Shown here: piece by piece, positions 14,973 through 18,654 of the stretch
Numbering within the stretch: the first letter of the stretch is position 1
Layout of the letters: the number at the start of each line of letters is the position of its first letter
Origin: a virus
Strand: one strand, 5' to 3'
IMG/VR virus record: IMGVR_UViG_3300044655_001678
Coordinates: 1-23,988 of that record
Length of the DNA: 23,988 nucleotides
The notes under the pieces: model-generated
The model's input: the letters and a program-made list of their open reading frames with translations, nothing else
Told to the model about the DNA's origin: nothing
The model's database searches: none
Translations under genes and position numbers: made by a program

Positions 14973-14980
14973 TATTTATT
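14973..14980 (-). promoter_or_regulatory. Late-promoter-like AATAAATA before the structural gene
   Basis: The minus strand reads AATAAATA about 30 bases before the ATG at 14944, one base from the T4 late consensus TATAAATA (recalled). It is followed by an AT-rich leader and a strong AAGGAG. There is room for a start site some 10 bases downstream. Together with the terminator after the gene, it could make a one-gene late transcript. The match is short in an AT-rich genome. Confidence 0.5.
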
Positions 14981-17468
14981 ATATGTTGGGTCTACCATTC
15001 GGGCTGTTCAATTTGGTCTTGAGTACAGGGTCGATTTCAACCGTATCTCTTTCTTGACCAGTCATAGTTTTACCACCTTTAATGATAATTTTTGCATCAG
15101 CTTCTTTTGAACCACCTTTTTCTGATTTTTCCCAATCGTACAGTGTTTCTTTGATGCCCTTTTTCCTGTAAATAGCTTTTATAATTCTGGCGGATTTAGA
15201 TTTCTCTTTAGCCATTCTAGATTCCATAGCTTTTACAGAATTTGTTGCGGACATTGGTGAATCTTCTATACCATAAATACCCTCATTTATTTTCTTTTTT
15301 AATTTATCACCATGCTTTTGCATTAATCTTCTTTTGAGTTTATCAAGATTTGAAACCCTCTTAAATGATCCGTCTGGCTGCTTTTCAAAAGTACCTGATT
15401 TACGTGGATCATTTGATGTTCTTTGTTCTTCAATCTCAACTTCTTCTTTTGTTGCTTTCCAACCGCCACCCTTTGATTTATACCATTTGGATGCCCAGCC
15501 GTTTGCATAAGCGGATGGATAAACATCGAACTTCGAACGAGCTAGAGATTTTGCTCTGGCCCAAAGTTTTGGATTCGTTGGTGAATTCTTTTCATCAATC
15601 ATTTCAACTTCTTCATTTTTTGGTACACAATTTGGCACCATTTTGCCACCTTTTTTCTTCAATCCAACTTGTTTGTGTGTATCCCAACAAGCTTCATTTG
15701 TTTCTTCTTCAGAAATTTTACCTTTGCCGAAGTTTGAAACATTGACTGGCTTTCCGCCTTTGCTTGGTCGATCAGCAACAGGATCATGCTTACGTTTTGC
15801 TGCTACTGCTGACGCTCTTTCTTTTTTTGACAGCTTTGCTCTTTTCTCATTTGACATGCATTTAGGCTTTGGTTCACCTGGTTCACGTGCGCATGGGCCG
15901 ATTGCTTCACCTTTACTATTGATTCTTTTCCAACCACCTTCTGGATGTTTTGGATCAAACCATTTTCTTAAATCTTCTCGTGTAATATGAGCATCAGCAT
16001 CTTGATTATCGGGTTGTTTTTTGAGTTCGGTGATATGTTCAGTTTCTTCACTATAGCTTCTTCCAGACCTTTCATCTCTACCACCTAAAGGATACTTTTC
16101 TTTGTAAGGTTCTGGTTGTCTTGGAGGATTTTCACGTTTAAATTTTTCAGCTCTAGCTTTTAGAAAGGCATCTGAATCTGCTTTAGACATAGGTTTTTTA
16201 GCAGGTAAACCTTTACTTCTTAAATGTGCTATCATGTCATCTGCAAGAGATTCATTTGTAACTTCTTTAAATTGACCAGGTTTAAGTGTATAGTTTCGGA
16301 CTTGATGTTTTTTAGGTCCGATTTCAAATTGAGCATTTACACGACCATCTTCGTGGCGGTCAAACACTCTACCAATTTTACCATGCATTTCGTGCCCAGG
16401 AGAATGAATACGAACTTTCGATCCATCAAACGCTTCTTCAATTTGAACTTCTTCTTTGATGCTGACTATTGAATCATAGTCATTCATTGTTAAGGTATCT
16501 TTTCTCATATTGATAAGATTCTCTACAACTTTGTGTAGATCCATATCTGTCTTTGCATCTTCACGAGCATATTCAAGAACACGAATCAGCAATGGAATGT
16601 CCATTGTCACAGTATCTTTTGCATCTACAGCTTCTTTGACCGGTTTCTTTTCTTCATTCCAATCCTCACCGCGTTCACCCATACCAGATGCTTCGACTCT
16701 TCTGTGCTTAAAAGTTTTATATTCACTTGATTTTGAATATTTGTTTTTTTGATTGCCGTCCATGCTTCTTGGATCTAATCCCTTTGCTTTGATGAATGAC
16801 ATAAGTAAACCTGTGCCAGCTTCATTTACTGTTTCTTCGGAAGCCATAGCAATACCTTTTTTGCGGCGTGCTATTAGGTTCTTAGCTAAATCTTTATATT
16901 CACCTTTTTTAGCATGAGGTTGAAGTTCTTTTACTTGTGCTTTTGCTTTCTGAACATAAGATGATTTAGTTTGTGAACTAATCTCATCAATTTGTTCTAT
17001 TTCTTCCGCCACACTTTCTTTTGGTTCAGGAAGACGTAATTTTTTACGCATTTCAGGGCTTAAAGACTTTAATCTTTCTTGTTGCTTTTTTTCACGCTGG
17101 GCTATTGCTTCTGGGCTGTTATTTCGCTGTTCTCTGCGATCACCACTTGATGTACGATTATCCATTTCGTTTATCGCATCCTCTTTCATTCCAAGATCAT
17201 CATACTTTGCATGATCTCTTGAGAACTTTTTAAATCTATCTGTTCTTGCAAGATTGAGTCTGTCAGCTAATGGTATAGTTCTTGGATCACGACCCATAGC
17301 CTTGATGTATTTCCAAAGGATTTGAGTGTTGACTTCATCCAATGGTGCATGTTTTTTTGACCATGGCTCCATAGGATCGGTGTCACCATTTGCTAACTTA
17401 CCCATAACAGATTCTTTTTTGGTTTTTTTCATCGCTTCCAAAAATATCTGTTTTCTGCGTTCACTCAT
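14979..17468 (-). CDS. Large modular basic protein with repeated IxE motifs; candidate internal-head polyprotein
   Basis: 829 residues, very rich in Lys, Arg and Glu, no membrane segment. It is a string of short basic segments separated by acidic motifs: EEIEQIDE (155-162), EEVQIEEA (339-346), EETEHITE (474-481), EEVEMIDE (619-626), EEVEIEEQ (675-682), plus LDE45, VNE216 and INE729. T4 prohead protease gp21 cuts after (I/L)-x-E, so these look like cleavage junctions. Segments include two copies of an IKAxGxDPR domain (46-86, 217-257), an SH3-like part (about 348-402), and a Cys-containing WFDPKHPEGGWKRI...GPCAREPGEPKPKC block (503-537). Next come a CWDTHKQVG...NCVPK block (594-617) and a KFDVYPSAYANGWASKWYKS block (646-665). 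I recall these blocks in many T4-like phage proteins, in varying order. AAGGA precedes the ATG at 17468. Confidence 0.85.
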   Translation of the reverse strand: MSERRKQIFLEAMKKTKKESVMGKLANGDTDPMEPWSKKHAPLDEVNTQILWKYIKAMGRDPRTIPLADRLNLARTDRFKKFSRDHAKYDDLGMKEDAINEMDNRTSSGDRREQRNNSPEAIAQREKKQQERLKSLSPEMRKKLRLPEPKESVAEEIEQIDEISSQTKSSYVQKAKAQVKELQPHAKKGEYKDLAKNLIARRKKGIAMASEETVNEAGTGLLMSFIKAKGLDPRSMDGNQKNKYSKSSEYKTFKHRRVEASGMGERGEDWNEEKKPVKEAVDAKDTVTMDIPLLIRVLEYAREDAKTDMDLHKVVENLINMRKDTLTMNDYDSIVSIKEEVQIEEAFDGSKVRIHSPGHEMHGKIGRVFDRHEDGRVNAQFEIGPKKHQVRNYTLKPGQFKEVTNESLADDMIAHLRSKGLPAKKPMSKADSDAFLKARAEKFKRENPPRQPEPYKEKYPLGGRDERSGRSYSEETEHITELKKQPDNQDADAHITREDLRKWFDPKHPEGGWKRINSKGEAIGPCAREPGEPKPKCMSNEKRAKLSKKERASAVAAKRKHDPVADRPSKGGKPVNVSNFGKGKISEEETNEACWDTHKQVGLKKKGGKMVPNCVPKNEEVEMIDEKNSPTNPKLWARAKSLARSKFDVYPSAYANGWASKWYKSKGGGWKATKEEVEIEEQRTSNDPRKSGTFEKQPDGSFKRVSNLDKLKRRLMQKHGDKLKKKINEGIYGIEDSPMSATNSVKAMESRMAKEKSKSARIIKAIYRKKGIKETLYDWEKSEKGGSKEADAKIIIKGGKTMTGQERDTVEIDPVLKTKLNSPNGRPNI

Positions 17469-18132
17469 GGTTTAATCCTTATTTCTTTTCTTTTGCTCTT
17501 GCTGTAGCAGTTGCATACATTACGCTTTTTGCTTTTTCACCATAACGAGATTTGAAACCAGCGAGACTCTTTTTCATACCTTTTACGATACGCTCTTTCT
17601 CTGCTGTTTCTGGTTTTGTTAGTGTACGTTCATCAATTTGTTCATCTTCTTCTTTAATTTTGTTTGCTTTCTGTTTTTGTATTTTGTATTGAGCAGTTTT
17701 AATACCTTTGATTCTTTTATCTTCCTTACTTCTATCTCCACCTATCAGAGCTTTATTGGCTTTAGTTGCATAACGTACCATTGTACTTATTTTTAGTTCA
17801 TCAATTTGTTCCACTTCTTCTTTGACATTATCAGGAACATCCATCATAACTTTCTTTGAAAGAAAAGGATTAGAAGAAGATTTTTCTCTACCCTTTAATG
17901 TATCTGTGGTGGTTTTATTTGGATCAGTTTCTTCTTTTTGTGGTGCACTTTGTGCTTTACCTTTAACCAATTTACCTTTAGCTTGACGAGCTAGGAACTT
18001 GGCTGCACGTTCATCATGCCCAGGCATTAGACTTGTCATTGATACATGCCCTTCAGGAGCTTTGCGCTCATTTTCAGGGTTGTCGTACCCTTTGCCCTTG
18101 ACTCTTGCTTCATCAACCTGTTCGGCTTCTTC
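15423..18132 (-). repeat. Dispersed acidic EExEQIDE-type coding repeats
   Basis: Short related stretches recur in two adjacent genes: 18109-18132 (EEAEQVDE), 17797-17820 (EEVEQIDE), 17629-17652 (EEDEQIDE), 16983-17006 (EEIEQIDE), 16431-16454 (EEVQIEEA), 16026-16049 (EETEHITE), 15591-15614 (EEVEMIDE), 15423-15446 (EEVEIEEQ). Several are close even at DNA level (plus strand CATCAATTTGTTC followed by TTCTTC). They separate otherwise unrelated basic segments. Confidence 0.8.
16698..16820 (-). repeat. Second copy of the IKAxGxDPR domain
   Basis: Residues 217-257 of the 829-residue protein align without gaps with residues 46-86 (DNA 17211-17333): 11 of 41 identical, centred on FIKAKGLDPRS versus YIKAMGRDPRT, with a later KxF block. 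Both copies begin right after a [LV]-x-E triplet (LDE45, VNE216), as expected for units delimited by protease sites. Confidence 0.7.
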
Positions 18133-18321
18133 TTTCATACCCTTCTTCTGCCCACGGAGAATCGCAAAATCATGCGCATCGATTTTGTTATTCTTATTCT
18201 TATCAATCTTATGCTGATTACCTTTTAATTCTTCCATTTTAGCCTTTGTGTCGGCCTCAAGGATATTTTTAACCAGGTTCGCAATAGAATCCATCTTAGC
18301 AAATTTATTATTTGTGAACAT
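17479..18321 (-). CDS. Modular basic protein with EF-hand-like motif and IxE junctions
   Basis: 280 residues, Lys-rich, built like its 829-residue neighbour. After NILEAD (I20-x-E22 then Ala) comes a Ca-binding-like loop DKNKNNKIDAHD (40-51) with Asp/Asn at positions 1, 3, 5, 9 and 12, as in EF-hand or dockerin loops. Junction-like motifs are EEAEQVDE (64-71), EEVEQIDE (168-175) and EEDEQIDE (224-231). Between them are basic segments, one with ATKANKALIGGDRSKEDKRI and a last one with ERIVKGMKKSLAGFKSRYGE and KSVMYATATARAKEKK, which I recall from other phage proteins. Cuts after each Glu would give pieces of about 49, 104, 56 and 49 residues. ATG at 18321 with GGAG at six bases. Likely internal-head role, inferred. 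Confidence 0.82.
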   Translation of the reverse strand: MFTNNKFAKMDSIANLVKNILEADTKAKMEELKGNQHKIDKNKNNKIDAHDFAILRGQKKGMKEEAEQVDEARVKGKGYDNPENERKAPEGHVSMTSLMPGHDERAAKFLARQAKGKLVKGKAQSAPQKEETDPNKTTTDTLKGREKSSSNPFLSKKVMMDVPDNVKEEVEQIDELKISTMVRYATKANKALIGGDRSKEDKRIKGIKTAQYKIQKQKANKIKEEDEQIDERTLTKPETAEKERIVKGMKKSLAGFKSRYGEKAKSVMYATATARAKEKK

Positions 18322-18333
18322 CTTTTTCTCCGT

Positions 18334-18654
18334 TTAGCAGTTCCACTTTCTAAGTGATTTATTAATTCTTGAATTAGGATCTCTTGCCGTTTTAGCAGAA
18401 GTCAATCTTTTCTTCATCCCCGTCATTCTGGAACAAAATGATTTACGTCTGTTCCATGCTTTAGAACCTTTTTTAAGCTTTGATGGTTTAGTTGTAACTG
18501 CCATCGAAAGCTTTGAACCTGGGTTTTCTCTTCGATATGAAGCAATACCTTTTCTATTCAACCCACCAGATTGAGACTTACCTTCTTTCCTTTGCCAAGC
18601 TGGTGTGGCTTCATTTATTACTTCTTCGTTGATAAACTGTTTGAAACTTTTCAT
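18334..18654 (-). CDS. Small basic protein with capsid-targeting-like tag (DUF6321-like)
   Basis: 106 residues, strongly basic. The first ten residues MKSFKQFINE place Ile at 8 and Glu at 10 exactly as in the T4 internal-protein tag MKTYQEFIAE (recalled), and a second I-x-E followed by Ala occurs at INE15-A16. The rest, with SGGLNRKGIASYRRENPGSK, KKGSKAWNRRKSFCSRMTGM and the ending SLRKWNC, is a compact family I recall as DUF6321, frequent in T4-like phages, either alone or as a module of larger proteins. Two Cys (in FCSRM and at the C-terminus) are kept. It probably binds DNA or RNA by charge and may be packaged; function unknown. Its ATG overlaps the upstream stop as ATGA. Confidence 0.83.
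   Translation of the reverse strand: MKSFKQFINEEVINEATPAWQRKEGKSQSGGLNRKGIASYRRENPGSKLSMAVTTKPSKLKKGSKAWNRRKSFCSRMTGMKKRLTSAKTARDPNSRINKSLRKWNC

Follow-up and report, generated by a model that had tools for sequence, protein, structure and literature searches.

The window analysed here is the 23,988-base virus contig IMGVR_UViG_3300044655_001678 at its full length, and it carries on its minus strand two adjacent open reading frames (ORFs) which encode proteins of 829 and 280 amino acids (aa). These proteins are read, with a probability of roughly two in three, as precursors that each hold a set of small internal head proteins, which would be targeted to the prohead by a leader, cut by a gp21-type protease and probably ejected with the DNA. 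The original prediction had made both proteins carriers of many small internal-head proteins or peptides, and the modules, the sites between them, the placing of the borders, the shuffling of modules among relatives and the presence of a protease gene support this without amounting to proof. A 91.6-kb contig (G001) is 99.971% identical to the window across all 23,988 nucleotides (nt; 7 mismatches) and was thus read as the same phage; PHROGs and profile searches identify in it the T4-type head genes for large terminase, sheath, tube, portal, prohead protein, protease, scaffold and major head protein (gp23, phrog_138).

Both ORFs were confirmed at the positions first proposed for them (Table 1). 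The chains as a whole are basic as predicted (isoelectric points, pI, of 9.6 and 9.7), but this does not extend to every segment, residues 280-345 of the 829-aa protein having a pI of 4.5 when the motif is excluded. The segments are likewise mostly unrelated to each other, except that residues 43-95 and 213-270 of the larger protein, each of which starts at (L/V)xE, share 25% identity over 51 aa. All the motifs named in the original prediction are present (QIDE162, QIEE345, HITE481, MIDE626 and EIEE681 in the 829-aa protein; NILE22, QVDE71, QIDE175 and QIDE231 in the 280-aa protein), and the four cuts proposed for the smaller chain give pieces of 22, 49, 104, 56 and 49 residues. A Pfam search of the 829-aa protein found no family at E 0.1, neither protein has a family above the cut-off (a single match of the 280-aa protein, to Dockerin_1, was sub-threshold), and the PHROG matches of both are of unknown function throughout. 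AlphaFold gives the 829-aa protein no fixed overall shape (mean predicted local distance difference test score, pLDDT, 59.7; predicted template modelling score 0.26) and local helical modules with block means of 75-96 (residues 41-90) and 81-94 (residues 221-260); a search of the PDB with the whole model returned nothing at E 0.001, the best match having an E of 3.5. In the model of a 106-aa protein encoded next to these genes the leader is mostly below a pLDDT of 50 and the later blocks are at about 63-85, and both models would fit an arrangement of beads on a string.

It had been proposed that the segments are joined by I-x-E motifs, and this holds for the form of the motif with an acidic lead-in but not for the bare (I/L)xE, which is not enriched in either protein. 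An EExEQIDE-like pattern has nine matches in the 126 predicted ORFs of G001 (29,491 aa), eight of which are in the 829-aa and 280-aa proteins. As this acidic form was defined post hoc, after the two proteins had been viewed, more weight is given to the tests anchored on modules and to a more distant record, G009 (244 ORFs), in which four of the eight matches fall in two proteins of the homologous region. Relatives were drawn from the best 80 of 305 viral-contig loci matching the 829-aa protein (L001-L080) and from four named-cyanophage loci (L090-L093); these gave 1,524 ORFs, of which 276 matched the seeds and 86 were left after removal of redundancy (at least 70% identity across 60% of the shorter protein), ORFs reaching contig ends being retained. 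With an acidic site defined as [ILVM]xE with at least three D/E among the five preceding residues, the 86 relatives contain 163 sites compared with 16.4 in shuffled sequences (standard deviation 3.9, maximum 30, 200 shuffles), and the site density is 4.24 per 1,000 aa against 0.66 in the 1,248 other ORFs of the same loci. The consensus reads K-E-E-V-E-Q-[I/V/L]-D-E; of the 163 sites, 102 have D at P2, 85 have Q at P4 and 74 have L or A at P1'. The median site spacing is 80 aa, and 87 of 99 inter-site pieces have a pI above 8.5. Doubled sites also occur, EDVEQVDE being followed directly by EQLDE in one relative (L021:6281-7981).

The borders of the segments do fall at these motifs, as had been suggested, with modules beginning just past the last E. 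For nine modules in 276 proteins, [ILVM]xE was found no more than five residues upstream of 139 of the 157 distinct module starts, compared with 13.3% of random positions. The lead-ins vary in letters and length among relatives (ETVNE, EEQLDE and EDLTE before the AGTG/AGVG module; EEETNE, EEVVDE and EEVDE before CWDTHK; KKINE, EETVNE and EDVVQE before GIxGIED), whilst the triplet is mostly retained. The expectation that I-x-E would be kept among homologues is thus largely borne out, but fails for the LRKWF module and, in three marine cyanophages, for DUF6321. Eleven cyanophage tblastn matches start at residues 218-231 of the 280-aa protein, close to the border of its C-terminal module, and 10 of them at 227-231. 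When the 35 residues on each side of a split were compared, the two sides occurred together in homologues in 228 of 1,899 cases (12%) at the motif as opposed to 886 of 2,894 (31%) at control splits, the value at plain [ILVM]xE being 2,291 of 7,858 (29%). A BLAST comparison with the motifs masked placed a motif edge at 92 of 461 unique starts (null mean 19.2) and at 80 of 390 ends (null mean 16.1), but the linkage test is preferred because masking itself can end alignments.

The outcome of this shuffling can be seen in the chains of relatives. A 288-aa protein of G009 consists of a leader (MKTFKEYINE), a CW module, a KOW-like stretch, an SYxxKA module and DUF6321, with motif-type sites between the last four, and a 602-aa protein (L029) is a row of LxKxTLxSYxxKA units, each ending in a motif-type site. 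Similar chains are found in Caulobacter phage Cr30 (682 aa), P-TIM68 (1,006 aa), S-SKS1 (682 aa) and Methylophilales phage Melnitz, in the last of which a cytidylyltransferase is fused to the CW module. LRKWF-like modules also occur in the T4-GC119 proteins of the cyanophages S-SM1 and P-SSM4, and S-SM1 GC119 has four module types in common with this set (LRDWF, WPSAYASG, CW and DUF6321). In Synechococcus phage S-SM2 GC119 (L091:1802-3928) a DUF192 domain (E 3.6e-24) stands among small modules, which indicates that the chains can bear larger domains too. An L034 homologue of the WARAKSLARSKFDVYPSAYANGW module gave a sub-threshold match to DUF5872. In a 711-aa relative of the 829-aa protein (L028:8892-11027) an intein-like insert, which starts with C and ends in GN before S, splits the FDVYP/SAYA module; its match to the Pfam family Intein_splicing (E 0.0019) is under the cut-off.

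DUF6321 occurs both within the chains and alone, and the two states can be compared. Where it stands alone behind a leader like that of T4 IPIII, as in the 106-aa protein, [ILVM]xE directly precedes the module in 16 of 16 distinct relatives; where it is fused, the triplet is found in 13 of 16. A query free of the motif (DUF6321 alone) gave at least 596 confirmed stretches, from which 80 loci were kept (L123-L202) and reduced to 73 distinct ones, two being without an anchor and five having an identical stretch. At 49 of the 73 the module lies no more than 30 residues from the first Met in its open reading frame (triplet 4, no E 44, other E 1), and at the other 24 it lies deeper or has no upstream Met (triplet 14, no E 9, other E 1). 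Since 53 of the 73 loci lack any E in the stretch ahead of DUF6321, the site does not belong to the module itself. The first Met is 4-5 residues before AWQRK at 24 of the 73 loci and 18 predicted cuts fall 2-5 residues before it, so that cutting would restore nearly the natural start of DUF6321. In other phage contigs DUF6321 is often a free short protein (e.g., MAKTPAWQRKE...) without a gp21-type site.

The cleavage motif of gp21 has been given as L/I-X-E (PMC9026906). The gp21-like protease that the original prediction would require was searched for and found in G001 (Peptidase_S77, PF03420, E 4.5e-33; head maturation protease phrog_207), and all nine of the named records tested, among them T4, have the family as well. 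G001 gp23 has MLTE/T, the slash marking the predicted cut, at what looks like the place of FLTE/A in T4 gp23. Among T4 sequences IPIII starts with MKTYQEFIAE/A and IPI with MKTFKEFTST...ITE/A, which we take, together with that in gp23, to be the T4 cut positions. A leader ending in a gp21-type site is clear in the 106-aa neighbour and its homologues, and a leader pattern matches 6 of the 126 G001 ORFs, four of them within a cluster of eight genes (Fisher p 1e-4). In eight aligned rows of 829-aa relatives the leader ends in FLE/A in four (near-identical L001 among them) and LLE/A in one, and is absent in three more distant ones. By its leaders the cargo set extends past the two ORFs first noted to the 106-aa and 638-aa genes and possibly to the 394-aa and 60-aa genes. 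A 235-aa gene of G001 (16742-17449), located between portal and protease, has a leader-like start, MKRLKDFLQTKIDE.

TAAATA-type elements, presumably late promoters, are situated in G001 upstream of the genes for sheath, tube, prohead (gp67-like) protein, scaffold and major head protein, at distances of 27-56 nt, and one precedes the run of cargo genes (Table 1), of which the 394-aa DUF6267 gene is the probable first of a late unit. That strand of G001 holds 40 TAAATA-type words in all, ATAAATA and CTAAATA as bare words are rarer than chance in the window, and it is just the placement in G001 that is informative; TATAAATA was not found in the window.

Taken together, the favoured mechanism is one in which a short N-terminal leader, like the capsid targeting sequence of T4 IPIII, would carry the chain into the prohead core, where active gp21 would cut after the final E in sites of the KEEVEQ(I/V/L)DE type and release modules of about 35-150 residues. 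These would stay packaged in the head alongside the DNA and probably pass with it into the host, a transit through portal and tail that would favour small pieces. As they are bounded by the same type of site, modules could be exchanged without loss of delivery, which would also be kept when they are duplicated, fused behind another module or set alone behind a leader. T4 IPI can block host defence, and by analogy a role in binding nucleic acids or in counter-defence is suggested by the basic and Cys-containing modules. That T4-like phages of aquatic bacteria use the prohead protease as a polyprotein protease, with exchangeable small effectors, separated by KEEVEQ(I/V/L)DE sites, placed behind one capsid leader, packaged as a single chain, released in the head and delivered with the genome, is a wider proposal for which we would put the odds only slightly better than even.

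Virion data from cyanophages bear indirectly on the presence of such proteins in the particle. In S-SM1 virions 41 proteins were detected, the cytidylyltransferase T4-GC190, to whose family the adjacent 638-aa protein belongs, among them (PMC3037559). The GenBank note "similar to Synechococcus phage S-SM1 protein" is found in the S-SM2 stretches on gp18, gp19, gp20, gp21, gp23, gp3, GC119 and GC190, and not on gp17, gp22 or replication genes, and in the P-SSM4 stretches it is found on GC190, GC119, GC425 and GC426. We infer from this distribution that the note marks the virion set, to which GC119 would then belong.

Several observations weigh against the reading of the two proteins as cargo precursors. 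The counts of bare (I/L)xE are not above chance in either protein (12 observed and 8.3 expected in the 829-aa protein, p 0.11; 4 and 2.7, respectively, in the 280-aa protein, p 0.27) and plain [ILVM]xE, with 547 usable splits, sits inside segments, so that gp21 must recognise a wider sequence than the triplet or would make cuts within modules. The site counts overstate independence, as the proteins counted are relatives of one another and motif letters entered one of the six search patterns. The LRKWF border is weak, with the triplet in 8 of 21 starts and the nearest E mostly within HITRE or similar; the three fused DUF6321 modules without the triplet, those of P-SSM4, S-SM2 and S-SM1, do have the E, with R, H or Q at P3, and among the 24 DUF6321 loci at which the module lies deeper in the ORF or lacks an upstream Met, 9 show no E ahead of it. 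The leader pattern was written from T4 IPIII and the neighbouring genes of the window after these had been viewed; it misses T4 IPI, matches neither the 829-aa nor the 280-aa protein, whose leaders end in IFLE/A and NILE/A, and has just 3 of its 7 matches in G009 within the homologous region. Strong acidic sites number three in S-SM2 GC119 and are absent from GC119 of S-SM1 and P-SSM4, and T4-GC71 in P-SSM4 is without the S-SM1-similarity note. The S77 protease was found in 2 of the 34 motif-free DUF6321 records tested (34 of the 80 loci), the same two having gp23; as most of the others are short contigs, no claim of co-occurrence with S77 is made. L162, in a 101-kb record (G020), encodes a long chain with DLDE/G before DUF6321, and S77 was not found in that record, which may be incomplete or use a different protease.

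The strongest rival explanation, although we regard it as unlikely, is that the two are sacrificial core proteins like T4 gp22, gp67 and gp68, which help to build the core and are cut by gp21 into peptides that mostly leave the head. In its favour, and against the main reading as well, T4 core proteins give multiple fragments, which mostly leave the head (PMC9026906); also in its favour, most SPN3US propeptides, which have several sites, can no longer be detected in the particles (PMC10052503). However, in G001 the positions of gp22, gp67 and gp68 beside gp21 are held by genes other than those for the 829-aa and 280-aa proteins: a scaffold gene (phrog_237) separate from the cargo genes, the prohead protein phrog_1064 at the gp67 position and, at the gp68 position, a weak head-scaffold match (phrog_3503, E 7e-4). 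Moreover, the modules are mostly basic, conserved and shuffled, recognisable domains occur in relatives (the DUF192 of S-SM2 GC119 and the cytidylyltransferase-CW fusion of Melnitz), and DUF6321 is also a separate gene with a leader.

It is improbable, too, that the chains are modular virion or DNA-binding proteins which stay uncut, with the acidic motif acting as a flexible spacer or binding either the core or the basic modules next to it. The AlphaFold model, in which helical modules are separate and not fixed relative to each other, is what would be expected of any chain joined by spacers, and the three marine cyanophages without a hydrophobic P3 before DUF6321 would be accommodated. Against a spacer stand the preferences for D at P2 and Q at P4, which, unlike E at P1 and the hydrophobic P3, lie outside the search definition, the shorter borders, which keep the triplet while the acidic stretch shrinks (VNE, INE, VKE), and the leaders, which end in the same triplet. 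That the repeated motif is mainly a DNA-level recombination joint for segment swapping, with no cutting of protein, is very improbable, since modules do swap at the motif but its 11 listed copies in the window differ in codons and residues (though GAA dominates), the protein triplet is held at borders where the acidic stretch shrinks and the leaders with the same ending are left unexplained.

Table 1. Predicted cargo genes of the window, their segments and associated features (all on the minus strand; residue numbers refer to the protein named above them).
Feature	Start	End	Strand	Basis
829-aa cargo polyprotein (predicted precursor)	14979	17468	-	ORF; modules and motif sites
Leader MSERRKQIFLE then A, predicted targeting peptide and first cut E11	17436	17468	-	Alignment
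Residues 12-162, basic, end AEEIEQIDE; helical module after PLDE45 (further possible cut)	16983	17435	-	Module related to 213-270
Residues 163-216, SSYVQKA-type segment, end EETVNE	16821	16982	-	Sequence
Residues 217-279, AGTGLLM helical module, end PVKE	16632	16820	-	[ILVM]xE before 18/18 distinct starts
Residues 280-345, AVDxKDTVT helical module, acidic core, end EEVQIEE	16434	16631	-	[ILVM]xE before 10/12 distinct starts
Residues 346-481, KOW/SH3-like-looking (by eye only) and basic segment, end EETEHITE	16026	16433	-	Sequence
Residues 482-592, LRKWF...CAREPGEPKPKC module, end EEETNE	15693	16025	-	Weakest border
Residues 593-626, CWDTHK...PNCVPK module, end NEEVEMIDE	15591	15692	-	[ILVM]xE before 18/19 distinct starts; behind leader in G009 288-aa protein
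Residues 627-681, WARAKSLARSKFDVYPSAYANGW module, end EEVEIEE	15426	15590	-	[ILVM]xE before 26/26 distinct starts
Residues 682-729, basic segment, end KKINE	15282	15425	-	[ILVM]xE before GIxGIED in 11/11 distinct starts
Residues 730-829, GIYGIEDSP...SKSARIIKAIYRKK C-terminal module	14982	15281	-	Alignment, module starts
280-aa cargo polyprotein (predicted precursor)	17479	18321	-	ORF
Leader MFTNNKFAKMDSIANLVKNILE then A, predicted first cut E22	18256	18321	-	Sequence
Residues 23-71, end KEEAEQVDE	18109	18255	-	Sequence
Residues 72-175, end KEEVEQIDE	17797	18108	-	Sequence
Residues 176-231, LKxSTxxRYxxKA module, end KEEDEQIDE	17629	17796	-	Module type: [ILVM]xE before 36/36 distinct starts
Residues 232-280, RTLTxPETAEKERIVKGMKK module	17482	17628	-	[ILVM]xE before 6/6 distinct starts
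106-aa internal-protein-like gene: leader MKSFKQFINEEVINE (18610-18654) and DUF6321 cargo (18337-18609)	18334	18654	-	PF19846 E 2.1e-17
638-aa cytidylyltransferase and P-loop kinase/zeta-toxin-like protein, leader MKSFLQISEE, T4-GC190 family	18651	20567	-	PF01467, PF06414, phrog_3041
394-aa DUF6267 protein, leader-like MLPFRRFLIEE, T4-GC71 position	20564	21748	-	PF19782 E 2.6e-93
60-aa basic protein, leader MKTFKQFNED, pI 10.5	13492	13674	-	Leader pattern; phrog_3286, unknown function
CTAAATA, candidate late promoter of the cargo gene run	21783	21789	-	41 nt before first cluster gene in G001

The genes near the cargo genes are arranged in the order DUF6267, cytidylyltransferase, variable genes, a short virion-like gene, primase and RNR genes, and the neighbourhood resembles in its order those of the marine cyanophages P-SSM4 (T4-GC71, GC190, GC420-422, GC119 ...) and S-SM1. 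It is uncertain whether the 394-aa DUF6267 protein is a member of the cargo set. In the 638-aa protein the cytidylyltransferase is joined to a P-loop kinase/zeta-toxin-like domain (PF06414, E 2.1e-6), and the GC190 proteins of S-SM1 (387 aa) and P-SSM4 (383 aa) are shorter.

If the proposed reading is true, a rapidly changing block of genes annotated as "hypothetical" in cyanophages and their relatives would be explained as encoding delivered proteins, which could be divided into testable pieces by the simple signature of a leader and KEEVEQ(I/V/L)DE borders. Through recombination, phages would be able to gain or exchange injected proteins and still package them and, by the precedent of T4 IPI, many more candidates for counter-defence would become available.

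A close parallel is with the T4 internal proteins IPI, IPII and IPIII and with Alt, as the neighbouring genes of the window bear leaders resembling MKTYQEFIAE/A and the predicted products are small and basic. In T4 such proteins are directed to the core and cleaved by gp21 (PMC9026906); however, in the account given there it is a short propeptide at the N-terminus that is removed, and in Alt one at the C-terminus as well, whereas behind the leader four pieces are predicted here for the 280-aa protein and about ten for the 829-aa protein. Several gp21 sites in one chain are also found in T4 gp22, gp67 and gp68, but these are scaffold proteins whose fragments mostly leave the head, and the phage of the window has separate genes of that kind. 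Processing after Glu, as predicted here, is known for the head proteins of phiKZ and SPN3US, at A-X-E in SPN3US (PMC5694885, PMC10052503), in which, however, N-terminal propeptides, sometimes cut more than once, are removed from one mature protein, and no shuffled cargo set is described in the sections of these papers drawn upon. The polyvalent proteins of phages and conjugative elements have many domains per chain, a predicted co-delivery with the DNA and partial processing (PMC5512222), but the processing proposed for them is by metallopeptidases or an assemblin-like peptidase within the chain, and in the sections of that paper drawn upon no short modules parted by gp21 sites are named and the main text leaves cyanophages unmentioned. 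A further parallel is given by the cyanophage proteins T4-GC190, in the same gene neighbourhood, and T4-GC119, with several shared modules; these differ in being annotated as a cytidylyltransferase and a hypothetical protein, respectively, and in the variable strong acidic sites of GC119. No description of small interchangeable cargoes strung together in one chain with prohead-protease sites between them was found in the literature searched, subscription papers and preprints being outside that search; the elements of such a chain, namely internal proteins with a single cargo, gp21 sites and polyvalent proteins with multiple domains, are each known already.

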